Shown piece after piece: positions 2,052-60,801 of a stretch of DNA of 64,000 nt (position 1 is the first letter of the stretch; each line of letters starts with the position of its first letter). Position numbers and translations under genes: made by a program. The DNA is from Microbulbifer thermotolerans (GTDB lineage Bacteria; Pseudomonadota; Gammaproteobacteria; Pseudomonadales; Cellvibrionaceae): the NCBI RefSeq assembly GCF_900112305.1, contig NZ_FOKT01000001.1, forward strand, positions 124,001-188,000, in the 5' to 3' direction. The notes under the pieces were generated by a model that saw only the letters and a program-made list of their open reading frames with translations, did no database searches and had not been told where the DNA came from.

Positions 2052-4667
2052 ATGCATAATCCATACTCCTTCACCCCCTTGTCTCTTGCCATTGCCACCG
2101 CACTGACATTACCAATATCCCCTGTTTTTGCGCAGAACGAGCAATCTCCTTCTACCGGGGCCGGTGCGATTGAGGAAGTTGTTATCACTGGTACGCGGAA
2201 AGAAGGCGTTTCTCCCACTGAAACCCTGTCGCCGGTGGATCTGGTCGGCGGGGCCAATCTGACGGATCAGGCGAGCTTTGACCTCACCGAATCCCTGAGC
2301 AAGATAGCACCATCGTTTAATACCCAGCGCTTTCCGATTGCCGATGGTACGGCGTTTATCCGCCCGGTGACTCTGCGCAATTTGTCTCCGGACCAGACAC
2401 TGGTTTTGGTCAATGGCACCCGCCGCCACCGCTCTGCACTGGTCAACCTGCAGGTGGCGCCTTTGGGTACGATCAATCAGGGTGCGCAGGCGGTGGATTT
2501 CTCCGCGCTGCCATCGGCCGCCATTGAGCGCGTGGAAGTGCTGCGCGATGGCGCTTCGGCCCAGTATGGTTCCGATGCGATCGCGGGGGTGGTCAACGTT
2601 ATTCTGAAAGACGACGCCGAGGGCTTCAGTGTGTCGGCGCAGACCGGTGAATATTTTGAGGGCGACGGAACGCGTTACAGTGTGTCCGCCAATGCCGGTT
2701 TCGCTCTGGGTGAGCAGGGCTTTGTCAATACGACTTTCGAGTATTCCAGCGCGGATACAACCTCCCGGGGCGGAACCCACGCCGATGCGGCGCAGGTGGG
2801 TGAAGTGGTCGGTGTGGACCAGGTGCCACTGGATGGTCTCGGGCAACGCTGGGGCGATCCGGAGGTGGAAATTTCCAAGCTGTTTGTAAATACCGGTTAC
2901 GATATCAGCGACAGCATCGAGCTATACGGCAACTTCGGCTATTCCGAGAACGAAACCATATCGGATTTCTTCTACCGCACCCCGGTGCTGGATCCGCAAT
3001 ACGGAATTGCCGCCCAAGCTACATTGCAGAAGGACGCGGATGGCGATTTCCTGCCCGATCCGGCACCGCAATCACTGATTGATGATATTGTCGCTGCGGG
3101 AATGAATCCGTCCGATCTGCTGGTGGCGGATGCTTCCAGTCCCAGCGGATACGTGCTGCGCAATCCCATCTATACCCTGTTTCCGGGCGGCTACAATCCG
3201 AAGTTCGGAGCAAATATTACTGACATTTCCGCTGTGTTTGGTGCCCGTGGCGAATTCGCCAGTGGTATGACCTGGGATCTGCGCGCGCGCACTGCGGAGA
3301 ACGAGCTGGAGTACGTGTTGGAGGGGTCCATCAACCCAAGTCTGGGATTGTTGACGCCCACCAGTTTCAACCCGGGCACACTGACCCAGGAGGAAACCAG
3401 CGTAAATGCCGATTTCGTCCAACCCATCGATATATCCGCTTTGGCATCGCCTTTAAACGTGGCCTTCGGTGCGGAGTGGCGACGGGAAACCTACAAAATT
3501 GGCGCTGGCGATGAAGCCTCGCGGGCCAGCTCTCCCACGGCAAATTACTTCGGTGAAGGTTCCGACGGCTTCCAGGGCTTTCCCCTGGAGGCCGCCGGCA
3601 GCTACGACAGTGACAGCGTGGCCGTCTATGTGGATCTCGAGGCCGATATCACCGATCAATTCACTGCCGGTGCGGCGCTGCGCTACGAGGACTACGATCA
3701 GTTTGGCTCCACTTCCGACTGGAAGTTGTCCGCCCGCTACAACTTCAACGAGCGTTTCGCACTGCGCGCAACCGCCAATACCGGCTTCCGCGCACCGACG
3801 CCGGGCCAGGTCAACACACTGAATGTGACCACAACGGCGAACTCTGAGGGCAAGCTGATTCCAAACGGCACCTACCCCGTTAACCATCCGGTTGCACAGG
3901 CCTTCGGCTCTGTGCCGCTGGTGCCGGAGGAATCCACCAGTTTTACCCTGGGGGCGGTGATTACACCGTTTGATAACACCAGTATTACCATCGACTACTA
4001 CAACATCGATATCGAGAACCGGCTCGCCCTGCGCAATATCACCATTGGCAACGGTGAGGGGGACGATACCGATGGTGTTAATGAATTGGCACTGTTGACT
4101 GCTGCCGGTGTTGCCAACGCCGATCAGTTCCTCGAAGGTAACGTCAACTACTTTGTCAACGCCTACGACTCGGAGGTGAGAGGGATAGACCTGGCAATCA
4201 CCAGCGACTTCGAGCTGGGGGGCAGTTTGTTGACGGTGGATTTGCGCCACAATCACAACGAGCAGGAGGTGACCCGTGTCGAGGAAAATACCATCAATGC
4301 CCTGCGCGTGTACGACCTGGAAAATCAGGTGCCGAGTGACCGGACCACACTGACGTTCAATTACGATACCGGCGAGCTGTTTAGCGGTTACCTCCGCTTT
4401 AACCGCTACAGTGATTGGGAGTCCACAGGCGGTCTGTTTGGCTCCGAAGCCGCGACCTACAGTGGCGAGGTGCTGGTGGATCTGGAAGCCACCTTTGACC
4501 TGGCTGAAAACTATCGGGTGTCCGTGGGTGGAGAGAATATTTTCGATGTCGAGGCGGACCAGGAGGCAGATCCCGTTCTGCAATACCTGGGGGTACGCCA
4601 GTCTCTCACTTCCCCCTTCGGATTTAATGGCGGCTTCTGGTATCTGCGTGTCAGTGCGAACTTTTAG
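2052..4667 (+). CDS. TonB-dependent outer-membrane receptor
   Basis: 871 residues, a typical length. A signal peptide (about residues 1-27, ending PVFA) is followed by a TonB-box-like IEEVVITGTR (40-49), a plug domain containing LVLVNGTRRHRS and the ERVEVLRDGASAQYGSDAIAGVVNV region typical of the family, and a 22-strand barrel ending in an aromatic residue (RVSANF). A D-x-D-G-D motif (DADGDFLPD) lies in an extracellular loop region. It imports a ligand across the outer membrane using TonB energy. No partner transporter, hydrolase or siderophore gene is adjacent, so the substrate cannot be told. A GAGAGGA ribosome site precedes the ATG. The TAG stop is the first three bases of repeat element E1. 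Confidence 0.92.
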   Translation: MHNPYSFTPLSLAIATALTLPISPVFAQNEQSPSTGAGAIEEVVITGTRKEGVSPTETLSPVDLVGGANLTDQASFDLTESLSKIAPSFNTQRFPIADGTAFIRPVTLRNLSPDQTLVLVNGTRRHRSALVNLQVAPLGTINQGAQAVDFSALPSAAIERVEVLRDGASAQYGSDAIAGVVNVILKDDAEGFSVSAQTGEYFEGDGTRYSVSANAGFALGEQGFVNTTFEYSSADTTSRGGTHADAAQVGEVVGVDQVPLDGLGQRWGDPEVEISKLFVNTGYDISDSIELYGNFGYSENETISDFFYRTPVLDPQYGIAAQATLQKDADGDFLPDPAPQSLIDDIVAAGMNPSDLLVADASSPSGYVLRNPIYTLFPGGYNPKFGANITDISAVFGARGEFASGMTWDLRARTAENELEYVLEGSINPSLGLLTPTSFNPGTLTQEETSVNADFVQPIDISALASPLNVAFGAEWRRETYKIGAGDEASRASSPTANYFGEGSDGFQGFPLEAAGSYDSDSVAVYVDLEADITDQFTAGAALRYEDYDQFGSTSDWKLSARYNFNERFALRATANTGFRAPTPGQVNTLNVTTTANSEGKLIPNGTYPVNHPVAQAFGSVPLVPEESTSFTLGAVITPFDNTSITIDYYNIDIENRLALRNITIGNGEGDDTDGVNELALLTAAGVANADQFLEGNVNYFVNAYDSEVRGIDLAITSDFELGGSLLTVDLRHNHNEQEVTRVEENTINALRVYDLENQVPSDRTTLTFNYDTGELFSGYLRFNRYSDWESTGGLFGSEAATYSGEVLVDLEATFDLAENYRVSVGGENIFDVEADQEADPVLQYLGVRQSLTSPFGFNGGFWYLRVSANF

Positions 4668-4753
4668 GAAACCCCTGATAAATTCGCTTCCTGGAAGGAA
4701 AGAGACTTCGAGGCGAGAGAAGAAGCTCGGGTGATTGAATCGCAGGTTCCCTA
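4665..4753. repeat. Element E1: internally deleted copy of the 220-bp inverted-repeat family
   Basis: 89 bases filling the entire space between two convergent genes. One end reads TAGGAAACCCCTGATAAATT, and the other, on the minus strand, TAGGGAACCTGCGATTCAAT. The stretch from 4671 to about 4730 aligns with the right arm of E2 in reverse orientation (shared CGCTTCCTG and GAAGCTC-GGTGAT); the middle of the element is missing. The two ends supply the stop codons of the TonB receptor (4665-4667) and of the phosphodiesterase (4751-4753). Confidence 0.75.
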
Positions 4754-5527
4754 GGGGACCTGCGGTATATCCCCTCCGTCTACCTGCATCTGCTGATTTA
4801 ACAGCATCTCCGCGGTTAAGCGGGCGTTGTAGTCCATCACTATCCGAGGCTCGTCGGTGAAGACGCCGTCCGCGCCCATGGCGGCGATCAGGGGCAGGTC
4901 GTCGGGGTGGTTAACGGTGAAGATGTAATTTTTCAGGCCGCGCCGTTTGCCGTCGGCGATCATCTCCGTATCGGCGAAATCCAGGTTCAGGTGTACCGAA
5001 TAGGCTTTGAGCGGTTCCGCACACGCGGCTAGGTTCAGGGGAACGCCATCGATCAATACGCCGCGGCGCACCTCGGGCAGCAGCTGCAGGCTCTCGTAGA
5101 GCTGGCGGTGATCAAAGGATGAGATCAAGTATTGCTCGAAGCTGGCGCCGCTGTCGCGCACGTAGGATTCCAGTTCCGTCGCCACCAGGGCGGCGCAGCC
5201 GGGCCCCTTCATTTCGATATTCAGCTGCGCGTTGTTGCCAACCAGTTCCAGTACCTCACGCAGGGTTGGTACCTGCTGGCCGCAGGGGAGGAGTCTCTGG
5301 CGCAGCGCCTCGGGGCAAAGATCGGTGAGCAGTTCGCTGCCGGCGATCAGGCGTCCGAGCCGGCGGTCGTGCTTGACCAGCAGTTGTCCGCGGATATTCC
5401 AGATATCCACCTCTATACCGTCCACGTCGAATTCCAGCGCGTGCGCGATGGCCTGCAGGGTGTTTTCTGTGGCGCGCTGGCGGTAGCCGCGGTGGGCAAA
5501 GCAGAAGAGAGGGGTAGGTGTCTGCAT
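4751..5527 (-). CDS. Glycerophosphodiester phosphodiesterase
   Basis: 258 residues from the ATG at 5527; the frame stays open to an ATG at 5563, but the later start places the HRG motif at the usual distance from the N-terminus and neither start has a strong ribosome site. The GDPD signature is present: HRG with a following EN pair, the metal-binding E-x-D (EVDIW), the KHD strand, and an IEMKG strand with catalytic-type Glu and Lys. It hydrolyses glycerophosphodiesters to glycerol-3-phosphate and an alcohol. There is no signal peptide, so it is probably cytoplasmic like UgpQ. It is convergent with the TonB receptor across E1. Confidence 0.85.
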   Translation of the reverse strand: MQTPTPLFCFAHRGYRQRATENTLQAIAHALEFDVDGIEVDIWNIRGQLLVKHDRRLGRLIAGSELLTDLCPEALRQRLLPCGQQVPTLREVLELVGNNAQLNIEMKGPGCAALVATELESYVRDSGASFEQYLISSFDHRQLYESLQLLPEVRRGVLIDGVPLNLAACAEPLKAYSVHLNLDFADTEMIADGKRRGLKNYIFTVNHPDDLPLIAAMGADGVFTDEPRIVMDYNARLTAEMLLNQQMQVDGGDIPQVP

Positions 5528-5625
5528 TTTGTGTCGGCCTATCGGCTGGCTGGGCGCCAGCATGCCAGGAAATTATGACGTTCCGGTTACTGGATTGCCA
5601 TTGGGCGGGGGCCTTTCGTTGTAAT

Positions 5626-6254: not shown

Positions 6255-7898
6255 TTATCCCATTACTGGCACGCATTCAGCGGCGAGGTCATCCCTTGCG
6301 GCGATGGCGGCGCCGGTCAGGGCAAAGCCGAGTAATTGACCGTCTCCGGTGCGATATTCTGCCCGCACTCCACGCTCATTACTGTCGATGTGCCATTTGC
6401 CCTCCGCTTCGGCGGGTGGCGGGCAGATGGTGACGGGGCGCAGGGTGGTTTTGACGGCGAGGGGCATGACGCCGTAGCGCACCGGCGTGGGTGTTCCAGC
6501 CAGCGTCTTGGCCAGGGCGCGGGCGCAGGCCATCAGCGGGGCAACAAAGTAGAGCAGATTGCCCTCCACCTCGGCACAGTCGCCCAGGGCGAAGATATTG
6601 GCGTCACTGGTGCGCAGATGACGGTCCACGGCAATACCGCGCGCGACTTGCAATCCGGCTGCGGCGGCCAGGCTGGTGTTGGCGCTCAGGCCCAGGGCGG
6701 CCAGTGCCAGGTGCGCTTCCAGCTGCTCGCCATTATCGAGGTAGGCGCGGATGCCGTTACCGTTGCGGTCCAGGCGCAGTACCCTGGTGTTGCCATGGAA
6801 GCGTACGCCTTCGGATTCGAGTGCGCGCTGCAGGTCTCGCCCCGCGGCTTCCGGCAGCAGTGTGGCCAGGGGCCAGCCCAGAGTATCCACCATTTCCACT
6901 TGATAGCCGCTTTGAGTCAGATCGTTGGCAAACTCGCAGCCGATCAGGCCGGCGCCCAGCAGCAGTACGCGTTTGCGGCCCACCAGTGCGGTGCGGAAGC
7001 GGTGATAGTCGGCGAGGTTGTTGATGCGGAAGAGGCGGGCGTGGCCATCGCCGCCGATCGGCGGCAGGGGACGGCAGCTGGCACCGGTTGCGAGTACCAG
7101 CCTGCCGTAGCGAACTTCCGCACTGCCATTATCCGACGTCAGGGTCAAAGTCCTGGACCCGGTGTGGATCGCGGTTACCTGGGTGAATATCAGTATCTCT
7201 GCGTTGAGCTCCCGCGCCATCTCCTCGGCGGAGGTGCCGGCCAGTTGTTGCGGCGTCTTGCCGTGGGCCAGGGAGGCGGAGAGCAGCGGCTTGGAATAGA
7301 AAGTGCCGTCGTCGCCGGTGATCAACAGCAGCGGGGTGCTTTGGTCCAGTTTGCGAAATTCGCGAGCCAGATTGTAGCCGGCGAGACCGGTGCCGACGAT
7401 CACCAGCGGTTCCTCACCACTATCGACACCGGAAGTGGGCGATTGGGGCGGGGCCGGGGGTTCAACCTCGGCCACCAGTACCATATCGAATTCGTCTTTG
7501 CCCACGCCGCACTGAGGGCAGCACCAGTCGTCGGGGATATCTTCCCAGCGGGTGCCCGGCGCTATGCCGTCTTCGGGCCAGCCCTTGGATTCATCGTAGA
7601 CCCAGCCGCACACCATGCATTCCCAGATGCGGTAGGTGGCCTGTGCCGGTGCGGCGTTTGTTTTTTCGCTTGAAGGCGCTTCTTTAGAGGTGGCGGCGTT
7701 CAGCGCCTCCGGCTGTTGCTTGCGGCGCACCTCCACCATCTCAAAATCTTCTTTGGCGGCGCCGCACTGGGGGCAACACCAGTCATCGGGGATATCTTCC
7801 CAGCGGGTGCCCGGCGCTATGCCATCCTCGGGCCAGCCTTCGGCTTCATCGTAGATCCAGCCACAGATCTGACACTCCCACACGCGGTACTCGGCCAT
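6255..7898 (-). CDS. Double rubredoxin fused to FAD-dependent rubredoxin reductase
   Basis: 547 residues from the ATG at 7898, chosen because GAGGGAG lies just upstream; the ATG at 7913 has no ribosome site. Two rubredoxin domains come first (about residues 1-55 and 88-145), each with a CxxCG pair and a CPQCG pair and with near-identical cores ([20 protein letters not shown]). A reductase follows, with an FAD Rossmann motif ([11 protein letters not shown]), an NAD motif ([13 protein letters not shown]) and the conserved FALGDCAEV. The family passes electrons from NADH through FAD to rubredoxin, normally as separate proteins (AlkT, AlkG). Fusing both cofactors makes a self-contained electron-transfer enzyme. 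Acceptors could be a hydroxylase or an oxygen- or peroxide-detoxifying protein; none is adjacent. Confidence 0.88.
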
Positions 7899-7917
7899 TG
7901 CTCCCTCGGTCATCTAT

Positions 7918-10414: not shown

Positions 10415-10737
10415 TAGTGAGTGCTGACTCTGCAGCGCCTGCCTGTACGCCTTATCACGCTAAACCAGCCCGGCGAGTCTAAGGAACCTCTGATTAATTC
10501 GCGTGAACGCTTTGGTTAGTTCCGTGGCGCTCAGGCAATAGGATGGCTATTTCGAAAACGCACGAGTACTTCCCTGTAGCTCCGACGGATACCTCCCTGT
10601 ATCCGTCGGTTTCGAAATGGCCATCCTATCACCTGAGCTTCTCATCTAGCTCCTAAGAATTTTTACCGTCAGGAAGCGAATTAATCAGAGGTTACCTACG
10701 CTTTTTAGGTAGTTGGCTTTAACAGGGAGTAAAAGCC
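10415..10737. other. Intergenic region dominated by element E2
   Basis: 323 bases, of which 219 are repeat element E2 (10480-10698). The 39 bases between E2 and the phospholipase start leave little room for a promoter, so E2 may carry or border one. Confidence 0.6.
10480..10698 (+). repeat. Element E2: full-length 219-bp nested inverted repeat
   Basis: The ends read TAAGGAACCTCTGATTAATT and its imperfect reverse complement, both bounded by TA. Inside, an arm of 29 bases (10529-10557, GCTCAGGCAATAGG... to TTCGAAA) pairs with 10610-10638 at 26 of 29 positions. The centre is an 11-bp perfect hairpin (CCGACGGATAC/GTATCCGTCGG, loop CTCCCT, 10582-10609). No open frame is present, so it is non-autonomous (MITE-like). 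Confidence 0.8.
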
Positions 10738-11664
10738 ATGCCTTCCGCTTTTTGCCAGGGATGCTGGGTTTGTCTGTGCGTTTTGTTTTTCCCTCAGAGT
10801 CCGCTGCTCGGCCAGGAGTTATCGCAGGAAGCGGCGGTGGCGCCCGGCGGAGGAGGTCCCGTCTCTTCGCATTCGGCTACCGAGGTACATAGCAGCGACC
10901 GGGTTCAGGCGGTGCGCGAGGCGTCGATGAATCGTTTCTCGCTCGTTTCTCACAAGTCCAATTATGTCTTGCCCCTTTCCTACGGCGACACCCGCGATGC
11001 GGAAAACACTGACAGCCCTGAAACGGCCGATTGGAATGCGTTCGAAATGGAGTTTCAGTTTTCAGTGCAGGTGCCTGTCTGGGCCGGAATTCTGGGCGAG
11101 GGCTCTTACATCAGCTTCGCCTACACCAATCACAGCTTCTGGCAGGCTTATACCAGCTCTGCGCCCTTTCGCGAAAGCACTCACGAACCGGAACTGATGA
11201 TGACATGGCTGAGTGACTGGACACTGTTGGGTTTGCGGTGCGTTGTCAGCCAGCTTGCGATCAGCCATCAGTCCAACGGCCGAGGGGGCGAGATGTCCCG
11301 CGGTTGGAACCGCGTATACGCCAATTTTGTATTTGAACGGGAAGATTTTTTTCTATCAGTTAAGCCTTGGTACCGTATTCCGGAAGAGGGGGCGGGCGAT
11401 GACAACCCCGATCTTGCGTTTTACCTGGGCAACTTTGAGCTGGAGGGGGGGTACCGCACGTCGGGCTATGGGGTGTCTGTGCTGGTGCGCAATAATTTGC
11501 GGGCGGAAAACCGCGGTGCTTTTGAGGTGCGCTGGCGTTTTCCCCTCGGGCAGAGGCTGAGCGGCTACGTTAAATATTTCAACGGCTACGGTGAGAATCT
11601 GATCAATTACGATCGCCGTCAGCAGTCACTTGGTGTGGGGTTTGAGTTGGCGCAGGGGTTTTAG
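10738..11664 (+). CDS. pldA: Outer-membrane phospholipase A (first of two tandem copies)
   Basis: 308 residues with a signal peptide (about 1-26). It has the OMPLA barrel signature: VPVW, SFAYTNHSFWQAY, and catalytic ISHQSNG with His177 and Ser179, plus Asn191 in GWNRVYANF, the spacing of the H-S-N triad. The C-terminus ends in an aromatic residue (AQGF). OMPLA dimerises with calcium and hydrolyses phospholipids that reach the outer leaflet. A second copy lies 194 bases downstream on the same strand. Compared with that copy it lacks the N-terminal 45-residue insertion. The TAG stop is followed by a decayed element end (GGGTATCCCTGACC). Confidence 0.9.
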   Translation: MPSAFCQGCWVCLCVLFFPQSPLLGQELSQEAAVAPGGGGPVSSHSATEVHSSDRVQAVREASMNRFSLVSHKSNYVLPLSYGDTRDAENTDSPETADWNAFEMEFQFSVQVPVWAGILGEGSYISFAYTNHSFWQAYTSSAPFRESTHEPELMMTWLSDWTLLGLRCVVSQLAISHQSNGRGGEMSRGWNRVYANFVFEREDFFLSVKPWYRIPEEGAGDDNPDLAFYLGNFELEGGYRTSGYGVSVLVRNNLRAENRGAFEVRWRFPLGQRLSGYVKYFNGYGENLINYDRRQQSLGVGFELAQGF

Positions 11665-11858: not shown

Positions 11859-12953
11859 TTGTTGTGCCGCAAGCTTGTTCACGGCTTCTTTCTGTCTCTA
11901 TTTTGTAACCTGCCCGCAGTAGCGGACGTGCAGGAGGCGGATTTAACCCCGAAGACGGTGGACGCCCAGTTGACCATGGAGCAGCGGGAGTTGACCTGTC
12001 TGCGCGAGCAGTTACTGATGGCCCAGTCCGATGTCACCGTGGCGGAAATGCGCCGTTTCTGTACTGAGCAGGTGCACGGTGATCCGGTGTTGCGGGAGGA
12101 GCGCTCGCACTTTGCCACTGAGTCCGCACCTGAGCCGGTATCCGGCGATGAGGTCATTACCAGTGATGCCGCCATGGCCATACGTGATGCCGCCAGCAAC
12201 CCCTTTACCCTGGCTTCTCACAAGACCAACTATTTGCTGCCGCTGGTCTACAATCCGTCACCGGATGAAGCGGGTCTGGAAGATATCGAGCCACTTATCG
12301 GCGACACAGAAGAACTGGATTCCCTGGAAGTGCAGTTTCAGTTGTCAGTGCAAGTGCCCGTGTGGCGCGGCTTTCTCGGCCAGGCCTCTTTTATGAGCGT
12401 CGCTTACACCAATCGCAGTTTTTGGCAGGCGTACAATTCCGATAATTCTTCGCCTTTTCGCGAGACCAATCACGAACCGGAACTGATCATGACGTGGCTG
12501 AATGATCGGAGTCTGTTCGGTTGGCAGAATGTGGCCAACCAGCTGGCGATCAACCACCAGTCCAATGGTCGCAGTGAACCCCTGTCGCGCAGCTGGAATA
12601 GAATCTATGCGAATTTTGTTTTTGCACGGGACTGCTACCTTATCAGTTTCAAGCCCTGGTATCGGATTCCCGAGAAGCGCGAAGATGATGACAACCCGGA
12701 TATAGAACACTACCTCGGACATTTCGAGTTGAGCGGCCGCTACCAGCGGGGCGAGCACTCCATCTCTTTGATGCTGCGCAACAACCTGCGCTCCGACAAC
12801 CACGGTGCTGTCGAGCTGTCTTGGGGCTTTCCCATTGGTAACCGGGTGCGCGGTTACATGAAGTATTTCAATGGTTATGGAGAGAGCCTGATCGATTACG
12901 ATGAGTCGGTGCAGACGCTCGGATTTGGTTTCGAGCTGGCGCAAGGGTTCTAG
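11859..12953 (+). CDS. pldA: Outer-membrane phospholipase A (second tandem copy)
   Basis: 364 residues if started at TTG 11859 (another TTG follows at 11862); no better start exists and a strong GGGGGGAGG lies six bases upstream. A signal peptide (about 1-23, ending AVA) is followed by a Glu-rich segment (TMEQRELTCLREQLL, EMRRFC) absent from the first copy. Then comes the OMPLA domain with catalytic His233 and Ser235 in INHQSNGRS and Asn247 in SWNRIYANF, ending AQGF. The two copies share the same block order but clearly differ in sequence, so the duplication is old. The NUDIX gene starts four bases later. Confidence 0.9.
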   Translation: MLCRKLVHGFFLSLFCNLPAVADVQEADLTPKTVDAQLTMEQRELTCLREQLLMAQSDVTVAEMRRFCTEQVHGDPVLREERSHFATESAPEPVSGDEVITSDAAMAIRDAASNPFTLASHKTNYLLPLVYNPSPDEAGLEDIEPLIGDTEELDSLEVQFQLSVQVPVWRGFLGQASFMSVAYTNRSFWQAYNSDNSSPFRETNHEPELIMTWLNDRSLFGWQNVANQLAINHQSNGRSEPLSRSWNRIYANFVFARDCYLISFKPWYRIPEKREDDDNPDIEHYLGHFELSGRYQRGEHSISLMLRNNLRSDNHGAVELSWGFPIGNRVRGYMKYFNGYGESLIDYDESVQTLGFGFELAQGF

Positions 12954-19721: not shown

Positions 19722-19762
19722 GTTTCTTTACCGCCAGGCAGCGAATTCATCAGAGGCCCTTT
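19722..19762 (+). repeat. Solo right end of the inverted-repeat family
   Basis: TTTACCGCCAGGCAGCGAAT and the following TCATCAGAGG match the right end of E2 (TTTACCGTCAGGAAGCGAAT, then TAATCAGAGG). No matching left end is visible. Confidence 0.55.
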
Positions 19763-21872: not shown

Positions 21873-21901
21873 TTCGACAGCCTGTAAAGTCCGCGCGGAG
21901 A

Positions 21902-23596
21902 TCAGAGGTTCCCCTGCGGGTTACCGCGCTCGATCAGGGTGGCTACATCCAGTCCTTTCGGCAGAGTGCCGGTGCTGTGCGCGCCCCGCGCGCTCAGGCG
22001 CGAGGCGATAAAGGCCTCGGCCACGGCACTGCTGCTGCCCTGTATCAGCAGGTGCGCTTGCATCGCCAGTGCCAGTTGGTCTGCCAGTTGGCGGGCGCGG
22101 AATTCGATCTGGTCGCTGTCCGCCAGTTGGTTTTTCAAACTGAGAATCCATCTGTCCAGTAGAGGATCGGCGCCAGTGCTGTCCGCCAGCTCGTCGAACC
22201 AGTGGTCGATGGCCGCGGGCATTTTGGCGGCGGCGCGCAGTACATCCAGTGCCTGAATATTGCCGGACCCCTCCCAGATGGCGTTGATGGGGGCGTCCCG
22301 GTAGAGCCTGGCGGTAATGAAATCCTCGATCACTCCGTTGCCGCCCAGGCACTCCATGGCTTCGTAGGCGTGGTGCGGTGTGCGCTTGCAAATCCAGTAT
22401 TTGCCCACGGCGGCGCCCAGGCGCATCAGCATTCTTTCGTGCTCTTTCTCCGGGTGATCGAAAGCGCGGGCCATGCGCATGGTCAATGCGACGGAGCCCT
22501 CCACCTCCAGTTGCAGATCGGCCAACACATTCTGCATCAGCGGTTGGTCGATCAGGCGCTTGCCGAAGGCGCTGCGCTGTGAAGCGTGGTGGATGGCCTG
22601 TGCGACAGCCTGGCGCTGGCCGCCCGCGGAGCCGATCATGCAGTCGAAGCGGGTTACGGCCACCATTTCGATAATGGCGTTGATTCCTCGGCCTTCTTCT
22701 CCTACCAGCCAGCCCAGGGCGCCGCGCAACTCGATTTCGGAAGAAGCGTTGGAGACGTTGCCGGCCTTGTTTTTCAAGCGCTGGATCTGGACGGGGTTTT
22801 TGCTGCCGTCCGGCCGCCAGCGGGGTACCAGAAAACAGCTGAGGCCGGCATCGGTGCGGGCCAGCATCAGGAAGGCGTCGCACATAGGGGCCGAGGTGAA
22901 CCACTTGTGCCCCACCAGCTCGTAGCAGCCGTCGCCGAGCGGCGTAGCGGTAGTGGTGTTGGCGCGCACGTCGGAGCCGCCCTGTTTCTCTGTCATACCC
23001 ATGCCGATGGTGACGGCGGTTTTCTCTGTATGGGGGCGGTTGCTCGGGTCGTAGCCGCGATTGGTAATCTTGGGCAGCCACTCTTCGGCCAGTGCCGGCG
23101 CCAGGCGAATGGAAGGCACAGCGGCGAAGGTCATGGTTACCGGGCAACCGTGGCCCGCTTCCAGCTGGCAGTGCAGATAGTACTTGGCCGCCCGCGCCAC
23201 ATGGGCGCCGGGTTTGGGATCTGTCCAGGGGCTGCTGTGAAGACCTTCGCTCAGAGCCAGCTGCATCAGCTGGTGGTAGGCCGGGTGGTAGCGCACCAGA
23301 TCGACACGGTTGCCCACGCGGTCGTGGGGTTCGAAGATCGGGGGGAATTCGTTGGCGTCGAAGCCGCGCTGAATCATCTCCGGGCGGCCGCAGACTTCAC
23401 CGTAGCGCTGCAGGTCGTCCTCCGCCCAGTGGCCGCCGTTGTACTGAACGGCCTGACGCAGGGCGGTATCGGCGGCGTAGAGATTGTGGCCGGCGAGCGG
23501 CGCTACCTGATTGAAAACTTCGTGGGTGTCGGCCCAATTTGTGGCTTTGACGGACGGAGTGGTTGGTTTTGGCACTGGTCGTATCCCTGGCAGCAT
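21902..23596 (-). CDS. Acyl-CoA dehydrogenase, AidB-like
   Basis: 564 residues, matching AidB (about 540) rather than short acyl-CoA dehydrogenases. Family motifs: GMGMTEKQGGSDVRAN, GHKWFTSAPMCDAFL, the FAD-contacting AFGKRLIDQPLMQN, and ECLGGNGVIEDF with IWEGSGNIQALDVLR. AidB is a flavoprotein linked to the alkylation response that binds DNA through its C-terminal domain. Close homologues also act as isovaleryl-CoA dehydrogenases, so the function is not certain. The last codons and the TGA stop lie in sequence identical to a repeat end (GGGAACCTCTGAT). Confidence 0.85.
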   Translation of the reverse strand: MLPGIRPVPKPTTPSVKATNWADTHEVFNQVAPLAGHNLYAADTALRQAVQYNGGHWAEDDLQRYGEVCGRPEMIQRGFDANEFPPIFEPHDRVGNRVDLVRYHPAYHQLMQLALSEGLHSSPWTDPKPGAHVARAAKYYLHCQLEAGHGCPVTMTFAAVPSIRLAPALAEEWLPKITNRGYDPSNRPHTEKTAVTIGMGMTEKQGGSDVRANTTTATPLGDGCYELVGHKWFTSAPMCDAFLMLARTDAGLSCFLVPRWRPDGSKNPVQIQRLKNKAGNVSNASSEIELRGALGWLVGEEGRGINAIIEMVAVTRFDCMIGSAGGQRQAVAQAIHHASQRSAFGKRLIDQPLMQNVLADLQLEVEGSVALTMRMARAFDHPEKEHERMLMRLGAAVGKYWICKRTPHHAYEAMECLGGNGVIEDFITARLYRDAPINAIWEGSGNIQALDVLRAAAKMPAAIDHWFDELADSTGADPLLDRWILSLKNQLADSDQIEFRARQLADQLALAMQAHLLIQGSSSAVAEAFIASRLSARGAHSTGTLPKGLDVATLIERGNPQGNL

Positions 23597-36948: not shown

Positions 36949-37281
36949 ATGGCCAATCCGATTTACAAAGTCATCTTCCACAACCAGAACCAGGTGTACG
37001 AACTCTACGCCCGGGCCATCTACCAGAGCGATATGTATGGCTTTATCGAGGTGGAGGAGTTTGTTTTTGGCGAGAAGGCCCAGCTGGTGGTCGACCCCAG
37101 CGAGGAGAAACTGAAGGCGGAGTTCGCCTCGGTGACCCGTTCCTATATACCGATGCACAGCATTGTGCGCATCGATGAGGTGGAAAAAGAGGGGACTGGA
37201 AAGATTGTTCCGGTCAAAGGGGAGAAGGTGGCGCAGTTCCCCTTCGCACCGCCGATGCGTCAGCCGCAGGATACGGAATAG
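36949..37281 (+). CDS. DUF1820 family protein
   Basis: 110 residues with a GAGAG ribosome site. It begins IYKVIFHNQNQVYELYAR and contains YGFIEVEEFVFGE, both characteristic of DUF1820, a small cytoplasmic family of unknown function common in gammaproteobacteria. It is divergent from miaB. Confidence 0.85.
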   Translation: MANPIYKVIFHNQNQVYELYARAIYQSDMYGFIEVEEFVFGEKAQLVVDPSEEKLKAEFASVTRSYIPMHSIVRIDEVEKEGTGKIVPVKGEKVAQFPFAPPMRQPQDTE

Positions 37282-37301
37282 CTTTTACATCTCCACGCCG
37301 C

Positions 37302-37320
37302 GCCGGGCGTTCCGCCCGGC
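37302..37320 (+). terminator. Terminator-like hairpin after the DUF1820 gene
   Basis: GCCGGGCG and CGCCCGGC form a perfect 8-bp stem with loop TTC. No T-run follows immediately. Confidence 0.45.
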
Positions 37321-37327
37321 CACAAAG

Positions 37328-37371
37328 TCTCTTTATCGCCAGGGAGCAATTCAATCAGAAACAGAGGCTCC
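37328..37371 (+). repeat. Decayed solo right end of the inverted-repeat family
   Basis: TTTATCGCCAGGGAGCAATT, then CAATCAG and AGAGGCTCC, resemble the right end of E2 with small insertions. Confidence 0.4.
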
Positions 37372-41246: not shown

Positions 41247-41309
41247 GGGTTGTTCTCCATCTGGTGAGTGAGAGCGGCGAGCTTAGCAGTAAGCGGGCGC
41301 TAATTGCAC

Positions 41310-41529
41310 TAGGGGCACCTCAGATTAATTCACACGAGCGCTGTCATTGGTTTCGGGTCGCTCGGGCAATAGGACGGACATTTCGAAAGCGCACGAGTAC
41401 TTCCCTGTAGCTCCGACGGATACATCCCTGTATCCGACGGTTTCGAAATGTCCGCCCTATCACCTGAGCCTCACATCCGCCCGCGAAGAGCTTCTGCCAC
41501 CAGAAAGTGATTTAATCAGAGGTTCCTTA
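41310..41529 (+). repeat. Element E3: full-length 220-bp nested inverted repeat
   Basis: Same orientation as E2, with TA at both boundaries. The central stretch of about 34 bases (from CGCACGAGTACTTCCCTG through the first hairpin arm) is identical to E2. Long arms pair as in E2 but with substitutions on both sides: GGACGGAC faces GTCCGCCC where E2 has GGATGGCT facing GGCCATCC. Its right end contains the TAA stop of the DUF6279 gene (41527-41529). Confidence 0.8.
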
Positions 41530-42393
41530 GTTTGCGGAGAGTGTGCGGAAGTCTTGTGCGTATTTGCGCAGGGTGCGGATCAGGTGGGCGCGTTGGGCTT
41601 CGGTGGTGCTGGCGAGTATACGCTCGCCCAGCCGGCGGGCTTGGCGCTGGCGTTCTTCCTGTATCCGGCGGTAGTCCTTCGACCAAAGTTGTTCCGGATA
41701 GAGCACCAGATTGCGCAACTGGGCCTGGTAGCCTTCGGGTTTGTTGCGCAGAAGTTCCACAAAGCGCGCCTGCCAGATTTCCCTTTGATGGTTGCGTTCC
41801 AGTGGGTTGTATTCCACTTGTGTGACCCAGGCGGCAATCATTTGTTCCTGTTCAAGGCTCAGGGACCCGAGCCAGCGCTTGCTCTGCTTGCGTATATGCT
41901 TGTTGCGTCGGCGCTGGATTTTATCCGGTGTTTTTTGCCATTTCTCCAAAGATTCTTCGCGCTTTTTTCGCAGCGTTTTTTCCAGAGTGTCTATTTGTGC
42001 CGGAGTCAATGTTTCGGCCAGGGGCAGTAGCAGGTCGCAGAGCTGCGCGCTGGCGGTGTGCAGGAATTTTTGGATCTGTATTTCCGTCGATTCCAAATGT
42101 GGCTTTCGCAGTTGGTTTTTTTCGACCCTCTCGGCGAGCAGCTCGAGATAGTCCGCGTAGCGGGGTAGTTGGGTTTGGCGGTGCCAGGTGTGAAAGCTGT
42201 CGAGTGCGGCGTGCAGCGCGGCTTTCTGCTCGGCGTTAAAGTCGACATAGTCGTCCAGTTGCCAGCGCATCCACAGGTCCAGGTGGTTGTACGCAAATTG
42301 GACGCTGGAGCAGCTGGCGAGAAGCAGCAGTGTGGAAATCAGTGTCGCGAAGTTGCGTGTACGCTTCAGAATTGCTGCAGCCGGGCGCGCCAT
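41527..42393 (-). CDS. DUF6279 family lipoprotein
   Basis: 288 residues with a lipobox (LLLLASC), giving a lipidated Cys near residue 28, then the family signature SVQFAYNHLDLWMRWQLDDYVDFN. The rest is a long, charged helical region rich in Arg, Gln and Glu. Function is unknown; it should be anchored in an outer- or inner-membrane leaflet. The TAA stop codon is the outer TAA of repeat element E3. Confidence 0.85.
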   Translation of the reverse strand: MARPAAAILKRTRNFATLISTLLLLASCSSVQFAYNHLDLWMRWQLDDYVDFNAEQKAALHAALDSFHTWHRQTQLPRYADYLELLAERVEKNQLRKPHLESTEIQIQKFLHTASAQLCDLLLPLAETLTPAQIDTLEKTLRKKREESLEKWQKTPDKIQRRRNKHIRKQSKRWLGSLSLEQEQMIAAWVTQVEYNPLERNHQREIWQARFVELLRNKPEGYQAQLRNLVLYPEQLWSKDYRRIQEERQRQARRLGERILASTTEAQRAHLIRTLRKYAQDFRTLSAN

Positions 42394-48974: not shown

Positions 48975-49172
48975 ACGTGGACCCAGGTTGGTTCGCGCAG
49001 CCGTAAAAACTATTTTGACAGTGGGTGGGGCGGTCAAAAAAGGGGAGGCTGCAAACCGCCTGGCAAAAGGTGTCCGGTGGCGTTCTAAGGCCGCACGCGT
49101 GCGTTTTACCGGTGTGTCTGAGCGCTCGGGAACCAGCTGCAGCGCGCATGTGAGTGCATCAGAGGTCCCTCA
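48975..49172 (-). repeat. Possible decayed member of the inverted-repeat family
   Basis: Reading the minus strand from 49172, TGAGGGACCTCTGATGCAC matches the repeat end, and further on GCGCTCAG and AAAACGCACG recur in the same order as in E2. The far end near 48978 (GACCCAGG, GGTTCGC) is weak. The lrgB stop TGA coincides with the repeat boundary. Confidence 0.4.
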
Positions 49173-49859
49173 ATTCAGCAGCTGGGAAAATAGAGGTGCG
49201 CAGAGCACCATGGCCACGCCGGTAAAAATCATCGTTAAACTGGCGATGACGCCTTCCTCACGACCAAGCTCACGGGCCTTTGCTGTGCCGGCACCGTGGG
49301 AGGCTGCACCCAGAGCGATACCCTTGGCCAGAGAGGTGCGGATCCCAGCGAATTTAAAGATCGGTTCGGATAATGCCATTCCCGTAATACCAGTCATAAT
49401 CACCAGCATCGCCGTAATATCGGGCACTCCGCCAAAAGCAGTGACTGCTTCCATTGCAAAAGGCATAGAAACGGAACGAACCAACATTCCGCTCGCCAGC
49501 GCCTCAGGCATGGGAAAAATTCGCACCAGAAGCCAGGATGAAAACAGGCCCAGTATTAGTCCGGTACCAACACCGATCGTCAGTGTTAGGGGGTACCGCA
49601 GAATTACCCTGCGTTCCTGATAGATTGGCACGGCAAAAGCAATTGTCGCTGGACCCAGCATCATCACCAGAAAATGGGTATAGAGATAGTAGTCTTCCAA
49701 GGGGATATGCAATACGAGGATTAGAGCGATGATACCCAGAGGAGCTGCCAGTAAGGGAGCCAGCAAAATATTTTTTCGGTGCTTATAGGCTGTTTTAGTC
49801 AGATAGTAAAAGCCTAGAGTGGCGGCCAGGCTCAGGGCCGCAAGCAGCGTGTCAGACAT
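49170..49859 (-). CDS. lrgB: LrgB family membrane protein
   Basis: 229 residues, strongly hydrophobic with about seven membrane segments, and the conserved LrgB C-terminus GIALGAASHGAGTAKARELG. With LrgA it forms the CidAB/LrgAB family linked to holin-like activity or pyruvate transport. It overlaps lrgA by eight bases. Confidence 0.93.
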   Translation of the reverse strand: MSDTLLAALSLAATLGFYYLTKTAYKHRKNILLAPLLAAPLGIIALILVLHIPLEDYYLYTHFLVMMLGPATIAFAVPIYQERRVILRYPLTLTIGVGTGLILGLFSSWLLVRIFPMPEALASGMLVRSVSMPFAMEAVTAFGGVPDITAMLVIMTGITGMALSEPIFKFAGIRTSLAKGIALGAASHGAGTAKARELGREEGVIASLTMIFTGVAMVLCAPLFSQLLN

Positions 49860-55240: not shown

Positions 55241-55380
55241 TATGGCGTATGTGGTCGTGTTGAGCTTGGTGGTGCGGGTTTTCCATCGGTGCGCCTGCTT
55301 AGGGGTGGGGGTGTTTGGGGTGGGGCTTTATAGGGTGGCGCGATCAAAAATTGAGGGTGTTCATTATTGTAGTCAGTCGT

Positions 55381-55599
55381 TAGGGGGTCTCTGATTAATT
55401 CATTTCCTGGGGGCGGAGTTTCTTCGGGGGCGTATGTGAAGCTCAGGTGATAGGAGGCGTATTTCGAAATCGCCGGATACAAGGGGGTATCCGGCGGATC
55501 TGCAGGGAAGTGCTCGTGCCTTTTTGAAATATCCGTCCTATTGCCTGAGCGTCCCGGAATCTAGCGTTGTGTTCACGCGAATTAATCAGAGGTTCCTTA
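55381..55599 (-). repeat. Element E4: full-length 219-bp nested inverted repeat, reverse orientation
   Basis: TA-bounded ends (TAGGGGGTCTCTGATTAATT and, on the minus strand, TAAGGAACCTCTGATTAATT). The central hairpin arms read CGCCGGATA and TATCCGGCG, where E2 has CGACGGATAC and GTATCCGTCG, a paired A-T to C-G exchange. It ends 80 bases before the edd promoter. Confidence 0.8.
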
Positions 55600-55678
55600 G
55601 CTTCAGTGAGGGTTTTCCGAGGGCTCTCGGGGTGGGGCTTGTGTGTGGCCGCCCCGCAATTGTTGCGGGGTGGGGTGC

Positions 55679-55708: not shown

Positions 55709-55767
55709 AGCGCACCGGCCAGCAGCTCCGCCGGTTTAGTGCCGGATCTGCGGGAATCTGTTCAAAC

Positions 55768-56053: not shown

Positions 56054-57871
56054 ATGCTACACAGCAAGGTTCAAGCAGTTACCGAGCGAATTATTGAACG
56101 CAGTGAGGAAACCCGCGCCCAATACCTCGCACAAGTCGATAAAGCGCATATCGAGGGGCGTGCCAGCAGTCGTCTCTCCTGCGGCAACCTGGCCCACGCC
56201 ATCGCCGCCTCCGATGAAAAAGACAAGAATCTGATTGCCTCTGGGCGCGGTCCCAACTTGGCGATAGTCACCGCCTACAACGATATGCTTTCCGCGCACC
56301 AGCCCTATGGCGCCTACCCGTCGCAATTGAAAGAGGCCGCCGCCCGCTGTGGTGCCACAGCCCAGGTGGCCGGTGGTGTGCCCGCCATGTGCGACGGCGT
56401 CACCCAGGGGCGCGCAGGTATGGAGCTCTCCCTGTTTTCCCGCGATGTTATTGCCATGTCCACGGCCATTGCCCTTTCCCACGATGTGTTCGAAGGGGCC
56501 ATGTATCTCGGTATCTGCGACAAGATCGTGCCCGGCCTGGTGATCGGCGCTCTGGCCTTCGGCCATTTGCCGGCGATGTTTGTGCCTGCGGGCCCCATGC
56601 CCACCGGGCTGGCCAACGCGGAGAAAGTGCGCGTGCGCCAGCTGTTCGCCGAAGGCAAGGTGGGGCGCAAAGAGCTGCTGGAGGCGGAGAGCGCGTCTTA
56701 CCACAGTCCCGGGACCTGCACTTTTTACGGTACGGCGAATTCCAACCAGATGTTGGTGGAGATCATGGGCTTGCAGTTGCCGGGCAGTTCCTTTGTGAAC
56801 CCCGGCACCGAGCTGCGCCAAGCGCTGAACGGGGCGGCGGTTGAGCAGCTGGTCCGGATTACCGAGCCCAGTCAGCACACCCCTATCGCCAAGATTCTCA
56901 CTGAAAAAGCCTTCGTCAACGGCATTGTCGGCCTGCTGGCGACCGGCGGCTCTACCAATCACACCCTGCACCTGGTGGCCATGGCCCGTGCCGCAGGCAT
57001 TCAGTTGACCTGGCAGGATATGGCGGAACTCTCCGAAGTGGTGCCCTTGCTTTGCCGTGTTTATCCAAACGGCACCGCTGACATTAACCACTTCGCCGCC
57101 GCCGGCGGCATGCAGTTTTTGATTCGCGAGTTGCTGGGCGCAGGATTGTTGCACGCGGATGTGCACACGGTACTCGGCGACTCGGGCCTGGAACCCTACT
57201 GCCGCGACCCCTTCCTCAATGAAGACAAAAGCGGTGTGGTCTGGCGGCCGGCGCCGGAAACCAGTGGCGACCCGGATGTGATCCGTCCGGTGAATGAGCC
57301 CTTCTCCCATCACGGTGGCCTGCAGCTGTTGGAGGGCAACCTGGGTCGCAGCGTGATCAAGGTGTCCGCGCTGAAGCCGGAAAATCTGCAGGTGAAGGCG
57401 CCTGCGGTGGTCTTCCACAGTCAGGACCAGTTGCTGGAGCGTTTCAAGGCCGGCGAACTGGAAAAAGACTTTGTTGCTGTCGTGCGTTTCCAGGGGCCAC
57501 AGGCCAACGGTATGCCCGAACTACACAAGCTGACGCCGACCCTGGGCGTGTTGCAGGACCGCGGTTTCAAAGTAGCGCTAATCACCGACGGCCGTATGTC
57601 CGGCGCTTCCGGTAAGGTTCCGGCGGCTATCCATATGTCGCCGGAGGCGGTGGAAGGCGGTCCCATCGCCAAAGTCCGCGACGGAGACCTGATCGAATTG
57701 GATGCCGATGCCGGAATTCTGCGCGTTCTTGTGGACGATGCCGAACTGGCCGCGCGCGAGCCTGCCTCTGGAGATCTCTCCAGCAGTGCCCGCGGCACTG
57801 GCCGGGAATTGTTTGCGAATATGCGTTCACTGGCTAGCGGCGCAGAAAGTGGCGCCAGCATTCTTTATTAA
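56054..57871 (+). CDS. edd: 6-phosphogluconate dehydratase
   Basis: 605 residues of the IlvD/Edd family: GNLAHAIA, the Cys-containing [55 protein letters not shown] and [23 protein letters not shown]. It dehydrates 6-phosphogluconate to KDPG, the committed Entner-Doudoroff step, using a 4Fe-4S cluster. It heads the edd-zwf-pgl-eda run. Confidence 0.96.
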
Positions 57872-57921
57872 ATTACGGCGCGCAAAACAGGCGCCGAAAG
57901 ACAGGAAATCAGAGCGAATAT

Positions 57922-59382
57922 ATGGCTAACCCATTTGACATGGTGTTGTTTGGCGGTGGAGGCGACCTGGCGTTGCGCAAGCTGATTCCCGCCTTGTACC
58001 GCGCACACAGGGAGGGCAGCCTGGCTGAGGGCTGCCGCATATTGCCGGTCTGCCGGCGCCAGGAGGATGCGGACAATTATCTGGAAACGGCCCAGCAGGC
58101 ACTGAAAACCCACTTGCGCGATGGCGAGTACAACGACAACTGCTGGCGGGAGTTCAGTGAGTTGCTGCGCGCCGTGGCCCTGGATATTTCTGTGCCGGAT
58201 GAACAGTGGGACTCTCTCACTGATGTTCTCGGCAGTGACTCGGAGCGGGTGCGGATTTTTTACCTGGCGATTCCACCGGCGGTGTTTGGTCCCTGTTGCG
58301 AGAATCTGTCGCTGAAGGGATTGATTCACGAAAACTCCCGCGTGGTGGTAGAGAAGCCCTTGGGTTACAACGCCCGCACTTCAGACGAGATCAACGGCAA
58401 GATTGCCACCTATTTTCCGGAACAGAACATATTTCGCATCGACCACTACCTGGGTAAGGAAACCGTTCAGAATCTGCTCGCGCTGCGTTTCAGTAACGTG
58501 CTTTTCGAGCATCTGTGGGATGCGAAGACCATCGACCATATTCAGATCAGTATTTCCGAAACTGTCGGCCTCGAGGGCAGAGCGGGTTTCTACGATGAAA
58601 CAGGTGCTTTGCGCGATATGGTACAGAACCACCTGCTACAGCTGCTGTGCCTGATTGCCATGGAGTCCCCCAACAGCATGTCGGCGAAAAATATTCGCGC
58701 CGAGAAGATCAAGGTGCTGGAAGCGCTGCGTCCATTGGTGGGAGAGGCGGTCGATCAGAATATTGTGCGCGGCCAGTATGTGGCGGGTGGTCTGGGAACC
58801 CAACTGGTGCCTGGCTATCTCGAGGAACTGGAGGCGGCCAGGAGCAGTACGGAGACTTTTGTTGCCATACGCGCACACATTGATAACTGGCGTTGGGCCG
58901 GCGTGCCTTTTTATCTGCGCACCGGCAAACGTATGGAGAAGCGCTGTGCGGAAATTGTGATCCAGTACAAGTGCGTATCTCACCGGGTATACGACGAATC
59001 CGCCGGCGAGGTGATACCCAACCGCCTGGTGATCCGCCTGCAGCCGGAGGAAAGCATCAAACTGGTGCTGATGGCAAAAAAAATGGACAGCCTGACCATG
59101 GAGCTGCAGCCGGCGGAGTTGAACCTCACCCTGTCAGATACCTACGACAGCTTCCGCAGCGATGCCTACAAGCGCTTGATGCTCGACGTGGCGGAGAACA
59201 ACCCGGCGCTGTTTATCCACCGCGACGAAGTCGCCGCCGCCTGGGCCTGGGTAGATCCAATCATCAACCACTGGCGGGATACCGGCAACCAGCCGCATCT
59301 TTACCGCGCTGGAAGCTGGGGTCCCCAGGCCGCCAGTGAACTGCTGGCCCGCGACGGTCGCCACTGGTTCAACGCGCAATAG
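57922..59382 (+). CDS. zwf: Glucose-6-phosphate 1-dehydrogenase
   Basis: 486 residues. The nucleotide motif is FGGGGDLALRKLIPALY, the catalytic region RIDHYLGKETVQNLLALRF, and EKPLGYN follows the coenzyme site. It oxidises glucose-6-phosphate to 6-phosphogluconolactone with NADP+ (or NAD+). It follows edd by 50 bases. Confidence 0.96.
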   Translation: MANPFDMVLFGGGGDLALRKLIPALYRAHREGSLAEGCRILPVCRRQEDADNYLETAQQALKTHLRDGEYNDNCWREFSELLRAVALDISVPDEQWDSLTDVLGSDSERVRIFYLAIPPAVFGPCCENLSLKGLIHENSRVVVEKPLGYNARTSDEINGKIATYFPEQNIFRIDHYLGKETVQNLLALRFSNVLFEHLWDAKTIDHIQISISETVGLEGRAGFYDETGALRDMVQNHLLQLLCLIAMESPNSMSAKNIRAEKIKVLEALRPLVGEAVDQNIVRGQYVAGGLGTQLVPGYLEELEAARSSTETFVAIRAHIDNWRWAGVPFYLRTGKRMEKRCAEIVIQYKCVSHRVYDESAGEVIPNRLVIRLQPEESIKLVLMAKKMDSLTMELQPAELNLTLSDTYDSFRSDAYKRLMLDVAENNPALFIHRDEVAAAWAWVDPIINHWRDTGNQPHLYRAGSWGPQAASELLARDGRHWFNAQ

Positions 59383-59395
59383 GCAGGTGGGCGCA

Positions 59396-60106
59396 ATGGT
59401 AGAAGAAAAATTCTATTCAGACCGCGAGCGGTTGGTTCAGGCACTGGTGCACGACTGTGCCAGTGAACTGCAAAAAGGTATTAAGGAGCGCGGTCAGGCG
59501 AGCTTCCTGGTTTCCGGTGGCAGTACGCCTGAGCCGGTGTATCGCGAACTGTCGAAGCGGCCCCTGCCCTGGCCGCAGATTACCGTCGCCCTGGTGGACG
59601 AGCGCTGGGTGGACAGAAACGAGAGCGGCAGCAATCAGGCGTTTATCGAGAAAACACTGTTGCAAAACTGCGCCGCTGAGGCGCCCCTGCTCGCCATGAA
59701 AACTCCGCACGCCACCGCCGCTGAAGGCGAGGAAGATTGTGAGCGCGCCTACGCAGAACTTCCGAAGCCTTTTGACGTTTGCATATTGGGTATGGGGAGC
59801 GACGGACACACAGCTTCACTTTTTCCGCACGCCGATGGGCTGGCCGCAGCGTTGAATCCGGACTCGCAAAAATTGTGCAGTGCCATTACCGCCAGACAAA
59901 GCGAAGTTACCGGCGTTCACACGGAGCGTATGACTCTGACTCTGGCGGCGATATTACAGGCCCGGGATATTAAGCTGCTGATTACCGGCAACGAAAAACT
60001 GAAAGTTTATCGCGAGGCATTGCTCGGCAGTGACGAGTTGGAAATGCCGGTGCGCAGTATTCTCAAGCAGGGCTTAAAACCGGTCACCGTTTATTGGGCG
60101 CCTTAA
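59396..60106 (+). CDS. pgl: 6-phosphogluconolactonase
   Basis: 236 residues from the ATG at 59396, 13 bases after zwf, with GGCAGGTGGG upstream; the frame remains open into zwf. Motifs: LVSGGSTPEPVYRELS, VALVDERWVD and ILGMGSDGHTASLFP. It hydrolyses 6-phosphogluconolactone, linking Zwf to Edd. Confidence 0.94.
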   Translation: MVEEKFYSDRERLVQALVHDCASELQKGIKERGQASFLVSGGSTPEPVYRELSKRPLPWPQITVALVDERWVDRNESGSNQAFIEKTLLQNCAAEAPLLAMKTPHATAAEGEEDCERAYAELPKPFDVCILGMGSDGHTASLFPHADGLAAALNPDSQKLCSAITARQSEVTGVHTERMTLTLAAILQARDIKLLITGNEKLKVYREALLGSDELEMPVRSILKQGLKPVTVYWAP

Positions 60107-60177
60107 ATTCAACGGCCCCGCTTTTGTCCCGATCGTGTAATCGGAGACTTTTGTAACAAAAGGTTTGGAATTCAAAG

Positions 60178-60801
60178 ATGCAAGAAAAACTCGCCGAAGT
60201 ACTGGAACAGGCCAAAGTAATCCCGGTGCTGGTAATCGACGATGTCGAAGATGCCCTGCCGCTGGCGGAAGCCTTGGTGGAAGGTGGTTTGAACGTACTG
60301 GAAATCACACTGCGTACCGAGGCGGCGTTGGCCGCGGTGGAACGCATCGCCAAACAGCTTCCGGACGCCCATATCGGCACTGGTACGGTACTGAGTGGCG
60401 AAGATGTGCGCCGCTCTGAGGATGCCGGCGCGTCTTTTATGGTCAGTCCGGGAACCACTGAGCAACTTCTGGACGCGGCGGAGAGCAGCGATGTGCCACT
60501 GCTTCCGGGGGTCGCCAACCCCTCTGAAGTGATGCGCTTGTTGGAGCGTGGTTACCGCTACCAGAAATTCTTCCCCGCCCAGGCCGCTGGCGGCGTACCC
60601 ATGCTCAAGTCCATCGGTGGGCCCCTGGCACAGGTGCGTTTCTGTCCCACCGGTGGTGTGAGTCCGAACAATGCCAGGGATTATCTGGCGTTGCCCAACG
60701 TCATCTGCGTGGGCGGCTCCTGGATGGCGGCAGTCAACCTGGTTCGGGAAAAAAGATGGGCCGAAATCACCCGTCTGGCGAAAGAGGCCGCCACCCTGTA
60801 A
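60178..60801 (+). CDS. eda: KDPG aldolase
   Basis: 207 residues. The conserved Glu is in LEITLRTEAAL and the Schiff-base lysine in YRYQKFFPAQAAGG, with GTVLSGEDV and CPTGGV. It cleaves KDPG to pyruvate and glyceraldehyde-3-phosphate. The TAA stop is the first three bases of repeat element E5. Confidence 0.96.
   Translation: MQEKLAEVLEQAKVIPVLVIDDVEDALPLAEALVEGGLNVLEITLRTEAALAAVERIAKQLPDAHIGTGTVLSGEDVRRSEDAGASFMVSPGTTEQLLDAAESSDVPLLPGVANPSEVMRLLERGYRYQKFFPAQAAGGVPMLKSIGGPLAQVRFCPTGGVSPNNARDYLALPNVICVGGSWMAAVNLVREKRWAEITRLAKEAATL

Follow-up and report, generated by a model that had tools for sequence, protein, structure and literature searches.

YTAR target duplication and 3'-flank bias of palindromic, probably IS5-type miniature elements at gene stop codons in Microbulbifer thermotolerans

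We analysed a 64,000-nucleotide (nt) stretch of the Microbulbifer thermotolerans genome (contig NZ_FOKT01000001.1, positions 124,001 to 188,000; hereafter the window), in which palindromic repeats end exactly at the stop codons of some genes. The repeats are very probably miniature inverted-repeat transposable elements (MITEs), that is, non-autonomous members of the IS5 family of insertion sequences (IS), whose insertion duplicates a 4-bp YTAR target (Y, C or T; R, A or G) and so keeps the stop of the gene that is entered, and which are favoured in the 3' flanks of genes, with selection as the likely cause. The coincidence with stops probably follows from the known target preference and not from a special stop-seeking mechanism; stop codons appear not to be targeted as such, but to be the densest YTAR position within a favoured 3' zone.

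The family consists of palindromic hairpins of about 213 bp with the ends GGAACCTCTGATTAATTCGC, which carry no transposase and occur in hundreds of copies in this genome. The folding energies of the consensus are -109 and -116 kcal/mol, one for each strand. When the copy at 10480-10698 was used to search the genome, 144 matches were obtained from the 40 of 281 candidate regions that were scored, many of them the palindrome read backwards. The end sequence, with up to three mismatches, matched 508 times genome-wide (3.92 Mb), as compared with 14 matches for a reversed-pattern control. Copies were then detected with a profile built from 30 of them, in a sample of 94 systematic 20-kb stretches plus the window, together 1.944 of 3.923 Mb (about 50%, with 1,296 N in one stretch); an earlier, smaller sample covered the first 1.144 Mb. 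The larger sample contained 186 merged copies. In 101 the match extends to both ends; among them, 78 score at least 150 bits and are called well preserved. Decay is widespread among the copies.

Eight copies were found in the window in the first profile search and seven in the larger one, in which the remnant at 19725 fell under the cut-off. They are given below, together with a stretch that resembles a terminal inverted repeat (TIR).

4664..4754, strand unassigned: shortened MITE, 83 bp between the duplications (4668-4750); profile match 4748-4665, E 1.4e-9
10479..10699, plus strand: full-length MITE, profile 270 bits; intergenic, upstream of pldA copy 1 and away from stops; flanks CTAA/CTAC
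19725..19759, plus strand: possibly the remains of a single MITE end; first sample, profile 18 bits, E 7.6e-4
21900..21912, minus strand: 13-base TIR-like stretch GGAACCTCTGATC, weak, seen in the sequence; the profile finds no element there
37235..37359, plus strand: very decayed MITE remnant; profile 19 bits, E 4e-4
41309..41530, plus strand: full-length MITE, profile 190 bits, offset 0; left flank CTAG 41309-41312
49003..49173, minus strand: decayed MITE, profile 22 bits; right edge meets the lrgB stop
55380..55600, minus strand: full-length MITE, profile 165 bits; intergenic, flanks TTAG/TTAG, no called stop there
60799..61003, plus strand: decayed MITE, profile 52 bits; directly after the eda stop TAA 60799-60801

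The shortened copy occupies the gap between the convergent genes for a TonB receptor and GDPD. The TonB stop (TAG 4665-4667) lies within the left flank TTAG 4664-4667, after which the inverted repeat begins, and the GDPD stop (TAG 4751-4753) lies within the right flank CTAG 4751-4754, an end that by itself scores only -1.1 bits. At the full-length copy at 41309, the stop of the minus-strand gene for DUF6279 (TAA 41527-41529) is contained in the right duplication, TTAG 41527-41530. The preliminary description of this DNA had placed four stops at repeat ends, and these three, all with YTAR flanks, were confirmed; the fourth, that of eda, abuts a decayed copy. Three further stops had been linked there to decayed ends. 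One of them, that of lrgB (49170), does lie at the edge of a weak copy, and is a TGA (TTGA in the sense of lrgB). The TGA of aidB (21902) falls inside the 13-base TIR-like stretch, to which no profile match corresponds, and at the stop of pldA copy 1 (11662), which is real, the profile finds no element.

The flanks of the 78 well-preserved copies define the target. YTAR was found at 123 of the 156 ends (CTAG 39, TTAG 39, TTAA 27, CTAA 18), and both flanks are identical in 52 of the 78 copies. Hence the insertion target, and its duplication, is the 4-bp YTAR and not TA alone. The TA that had been noted at the repeat ends is present, but within a 4-bp boundary; the outer letters are constrained and duplicated too, which differs from the 2-bp TA duplication of IS630/Tc1-mariner elements. 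YTAR is its own reverse complement and includes TAA or TAG, so that one copy of the duplication keeps the stop whether the gene is on the plus or the minus strand. The proposal that insertion leaves the stop codon intact is thus supported, the stop being kept by target duplication. As a rough replicate we used 20 stretches of G037, from another family of the same order, with a gene model trained on the window's genome and with several stretches ending at contig ends; there, 27 of 29 ends of related elements showed YTAR and 3 of 29 lay exactly on stops.

Terminal inverted repeats are common to the MITE and to full-length elements that encode IS5 transposases. G033 has a complete element of 1,171 bp with matching ends and the flanks TTAG/TTAG, as well as a second copy flanked by TTAA/CTAA, and G005 has a complete element of 1,158 bp with matching ends and TTAG on both sides. 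The DDE transposases of these full-length relatives are 313-316 amino acids long. The G033 protein matches NF033581 (IS5 family) at 1.2e-106, and also DDE_Tnp_1 and DUF772; the G005 protein matches NF033581 at 6.4e-96. Pieces of such transposases are found in the window's own genome, several of them at contig ends and one adjoining a MITE. Because the 1,158- and 1,171-bp IS5-family elements of the relatives have such ends together with YTAR duplications, the donor of the MITE is most likely of IS5 type and not of IS630/mariner type. It had been suggested earlier that the repeats are MITEs of a TA-targeting IS630/mariner type, with the 2-bp TA in the stop duplicated and the stop rebuilt. There is a TA within every YTAR, and an excerpt of PMC2229807 links known bacterial MITEs, RUP among them, to IS630 and TA. 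However, the duplication is of 4 bp with its outer letters fixed, and the transposases of the two full-length elements that share these ends are of the IS5 family (no search was aimed at IS630 elements); we regard an IS630/mariner origin as extremely unlikely.

Two loci of the transposase fragments have a structure of their own. At L061/L204 (G000:C15 ~377,200-378,200), a MITE stands directly before a broken IS5 transposase gene, and the reading frame continues from the element. At L207 (G000:C30, locus 662-1693), an open frame begins as an IS5 transposase and continues into the tail of another transposase, apparently an IS66-like one, as in a chimera or a nested insertion.

To relate element ends to genes, we used 1,647 genes computed with a codon-model script of our own and not taken from annotation. 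At 31 of 266 element ends the stop codon is formed by the inner three bases of the duplication (offset 0), whereas each of the other offsets from -30 to +60 accounts for at most 5. The stops at offset 0 are TAG (20), TAA (10) and TGA (1), the last in agreement with the lrgB case in the window; among all gene stops in the sample TGA is the commonest (TGA 732, TAA 625, TAG 290). Almost only target-compatible stops are hit. A stop at offset 0 is part of the duplicated target and not of the element, and must therefore have existed before the insertion.

The preliminary description had also called for a comparison with loci that lack the element. For five genes the nearest relative has only about 68-86% protein identity; the relatives are too diverged for empty sites to be aligned at the nucleotide level, and the comparison was made at the protein level. 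Of 29 relatives examined for DUF6279 (from 30 that matched), 18 have a protein with the same last residue and the other 11 one that is two residues longer, and no recognisable end sequence was found within 300 nt in any of the 29. GDPD has the same end residue in 9 of 29 relatives examined (of 39). For eda, only 2 of 29 (of 31) share the end residue, and the protein is 1-3 residues longer in 27; eda is not a clean case of insertion at a stop. In the relatives in which a TonB gene lies beside GDPD, no recognisable counterpart was seen in the gap between the two, and a related-locus search with DUF6279 gave one distant locus only. These data also bear on whether the coincidence is accidental or an artefact of gene calling, the elements providing stops to genes that they truncated. 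At 11 of 266 ends the element does contain, 1-15 nt from its edge, the end of a called gene, in five cases a TAA at repeat position 13-15, and the shorter eda product would fit such an origin. The pre-existing stops at offset 0 and the shared end of the DUF6279 protein point the other way, and make this explanation very unlikely.

Five ends (L183:12966-13036, L187:13135-13200, L200:3919-3963, L068:419-473 and L099:12256-12306) are entered by genes that read through the duplicated codon, in which CAG, AAG, CAA, TGG or another sense codon replaces TAG/TAA. These genes terminate at an in-frame TAA five codons into the end repeat, in frame with the duplicated TAR. A built-in back-up stop, with stop loss rescued by the TAA of the repeat, was considered and is unproven: the relatives of two of the genes (29 loci each) end earlier or vary, and no stop at the duplicated codon was seen among them. 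A further arrangement was seen at L202:18928-19139, a 183-bit MITE. One of its ends coincides with the stop of a gene on the minus strand (CTAG); at the opposite end, a frame of 408 codons on the plus strand runs 11 nt into the element before it stops.

We then asked how far the availability of targets accounts for the pattern. Outside the elements, YTAR occurs 4,442 times within genes, 351 times at stops and 2,834 times in the remaining non-coding DNA of the sample. None of the 78 well-preserved copies is placed in a gene; 21 stand at stops and the other 57 in the rest of the non-coding DNA. Stops account for 27% of these copies and for 11% of all YTAR sites in non-coding DNA, an enrichment (p = 8e-5). 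It disappears when the comparison is confined to YTAR sites no farther than 60 nt from a gene 3' end: of the 49 copies there, 21 (43%, confidence interval 29-58%) lie at stops, with 45% expected (p = 0.78). The enrichment at stops that had been predicted thus holds against non-coding DNA at large but not within the 3' zone. The picture was alike in the first 1.144 Mb (12 of 25 against 44%). Of all 101 two-ended copies, 23 are at stops and 1 overlaps a gene; within 60 nt, the count is 23 of 61, or 38%, against 45%. When copies of any quality were taken, with partial ones extrapolated to full length, 42 of 186 were overlapped by a called gene.

Expressed per YTAR site, insertions amount to 0.056 at stops, 0.077 at 1-20 nt, 0.054 at 21-60 nt and 0.020 at 61-150 nt downstream, 0.012 beyond 150 nt and 0.007 where there is no facing 3' end. 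The rate at stops is not higher than that at YTAR sites 1-60 nt downstream (p = 0.88), and on this ground stop-specific targeting was rejected as the main cause. The preference for the 3' flank as a whole is strong. Sites 0-60 nt after a gene 3' end exceed other non-coding YTAR sites with an odds ratio of 5.2 (p = 1.7e-12), most well-preserved copies (49 of 78) lie within this distance, and divergent (5'-5') regions hold 5 of 78 copies against 17.8% expected (p = 0.003). The view that insertion beside gene 3' ends is favoured or tolerated is therefore upheld, with an approximately 5-fold preference.

Several observations weigh against our interpretation. The MITE and the full-length IS have little in common beyond the terminal ~18 bp, and two family searches of this assembly found no complete IS5 copy, only partial or contig-end pieces. 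The eda stop is preceded by G (GTAA, not YTAR), and the profile edge there is one base off. In two of the 78 copies a called gene extends over one end, namely in the copy at L202 and in that at L197, where the frame is short and possibly spurious; both were counted as stop cases, their other end lying on a stop. When copies were randomised within their own intergenic interval (73 of 78 usable), 20 fell at stops with 15.2 expected (p about 0.05), and a laxer gene caller gave 22 against 16.0 (p = 0.02); there may thus be a mild preference for stops, 1.3- to 1.4-fold within intervals. Moreover, the 3' bias is equal across classes of preservation (11 of 17 copies above 250 bits, then 21 of 33, 17 of 28 and, below 150 bits, 13 of 23). 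Since it is as strong in the best-preserved copies, a preference at insertion fits as well as selection does. Possibly the transposase or a host factor actively targets gene 3' ends, guided for instance by transcription, terminator hairpins or supercoiling, and YTAR is only required locally. The size of the per-site bias and its constancy argue for this; yet the same distribution is expected from purifying selection against insertions in promoters and coding sequence, selection may have sifted even the best-preserved copies, with purged ones invisible, and any genes missed by the caller would swell the non-coding class far from 3' ends and make the contrast look greater. We consider active targeting doubtful. 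That the element senses gene 3' ends at insertion, so that YTAR, a palindrome covering two of the three stop codons, and the 3' bias form a safe-harbour strategy silent on either strand, is likewise unlikely.

Selection for a function of the hairpin would also place copies behind genes, if the structure acted after the stop as a terminator or as an mRNA-stabilising 3' structure and insertions were kept for that reason. The strongly negative folding energies of the consensus and the 49 copies close to 3' ends are in line with this. A simple scan, however, finds no terminator-like site inside the DUF6279 copy, stop sites are not used above those 1-60 nt downstream, and decay is widespread, so that such a function is quite unlikely as the explanation.

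The favoured account is IS5-type transposition followed by selection. An IS5-group transposase, presumably provided in trans from IS5-type elements that share the MITE ends, would insert the MITE at YTAR and duplicate its four bases, as is seen in the flanks. Where the target is Y plus the TAA or TAG of a gene, one copy of the duplication remains joined to the gene and preserves its stop, whichever the strand. Most well-preserved copies lie within 60 nt after a gene end, where the stop is the most frequent YTAR site, and for this reason about a quarter of the well-preserved copies begin exactly at a stop. The scarcity of copies elsewhere would most likely reflect purifying selection.

The distribution of the family shows additional features. 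Matches to the ends number 340 in the window's genome (up to two mismatches to its own consensus) and 0-14 in each of 36 genomes of the same genus, which suggests a lineage-specific burst. At L084:16320-16880 there are three tandem MITE copies, each joined at an internal point, which suggests amplification by recombination and not by transposition. A different MITE of about 260 bp, with two hairpins, similar IS5-type ends and a partly shared core, is present in several species of the genus (L124, L126, L127, L131, L132), and a MITE similar to this type was found in another family of the same order (L128). A match of the hairpin to MIR1432 in Rfam (32 bits, gathering score 90) was taken as spurious. 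The window also contains repeats of other kinds: 125 nt at 11158-11282 and 12447-12571 (79% identity) are common to two neighbouring genes, one for a phospholipase A1 (10783-11664) and the other at 11859-12953, an arrangement like that of a tandem duplication, and 174 nt at 7473-7646 and 7728-7901 (81% identity) form an internal duplication of the gene 6255-7913.

These results give a quantified reason why hundreds of MITE copies can be present with few broken genes: a palindromic YTAR is silent at TAA and TAG ends on either strand, and gene 3' flanks receive about five times the insertions per target site of other non-coding DNA. They also show that an apparent targeting of stop codons can largely vanish once the availability of targets is counted, a useful control for similar claims. 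In a literature search judged by titles and abstract openings, we recognised no paper on IS5-type elements at host stop codons.

The repeats resemble the IS5 group (NF033581; E. coli IS5) in the 4-bp YTAR duplication, in ends that start with GG and in the DDE transposase of the full-length relatives; unlike IS5 elements, the window copies are hairpins of about 213 bp without a transposase, in hundreds of copies. In the excerpts available, the target of IS5 is given as YTAR (PMC10359306) and its insertion sites as CTAA/CTAG, and E. coli IS5 is said to favour DNA that is intergenic, AT-rich and destabilised (PMC11677980), a bias that could feed a preference for 3' ends. ISPsp10 (IS5 family, IS427 group) offers a parallel in that the TA target of an IS5-family element meets a TAA stop, but, according to part of the source, the target there gives the stop of its own transposase and only TA is duplicated, whereas here the stop of a host gene is kept (PMC4133298). 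RUP, Correia/NEMIS and the enterobacterial RU-type MITEs are likewise small, non-autonomous, palindromic and often intergenic, and in extracts of the reports are sometimes fused to gene 3' ends, as here (PMC2229807, PMC2759123); RUP differs in its tie to IS630 and TA targets (PMC2229807). QMITE (PMC5896051), finally, is another MITE inserted where a gene ends; in one strain the stop adjoins the element. In the example compared, the protein of one strain is lengthened by the element and the stop of another strain arises from an indel; the excerpted text does not mention a YTAR duplication.

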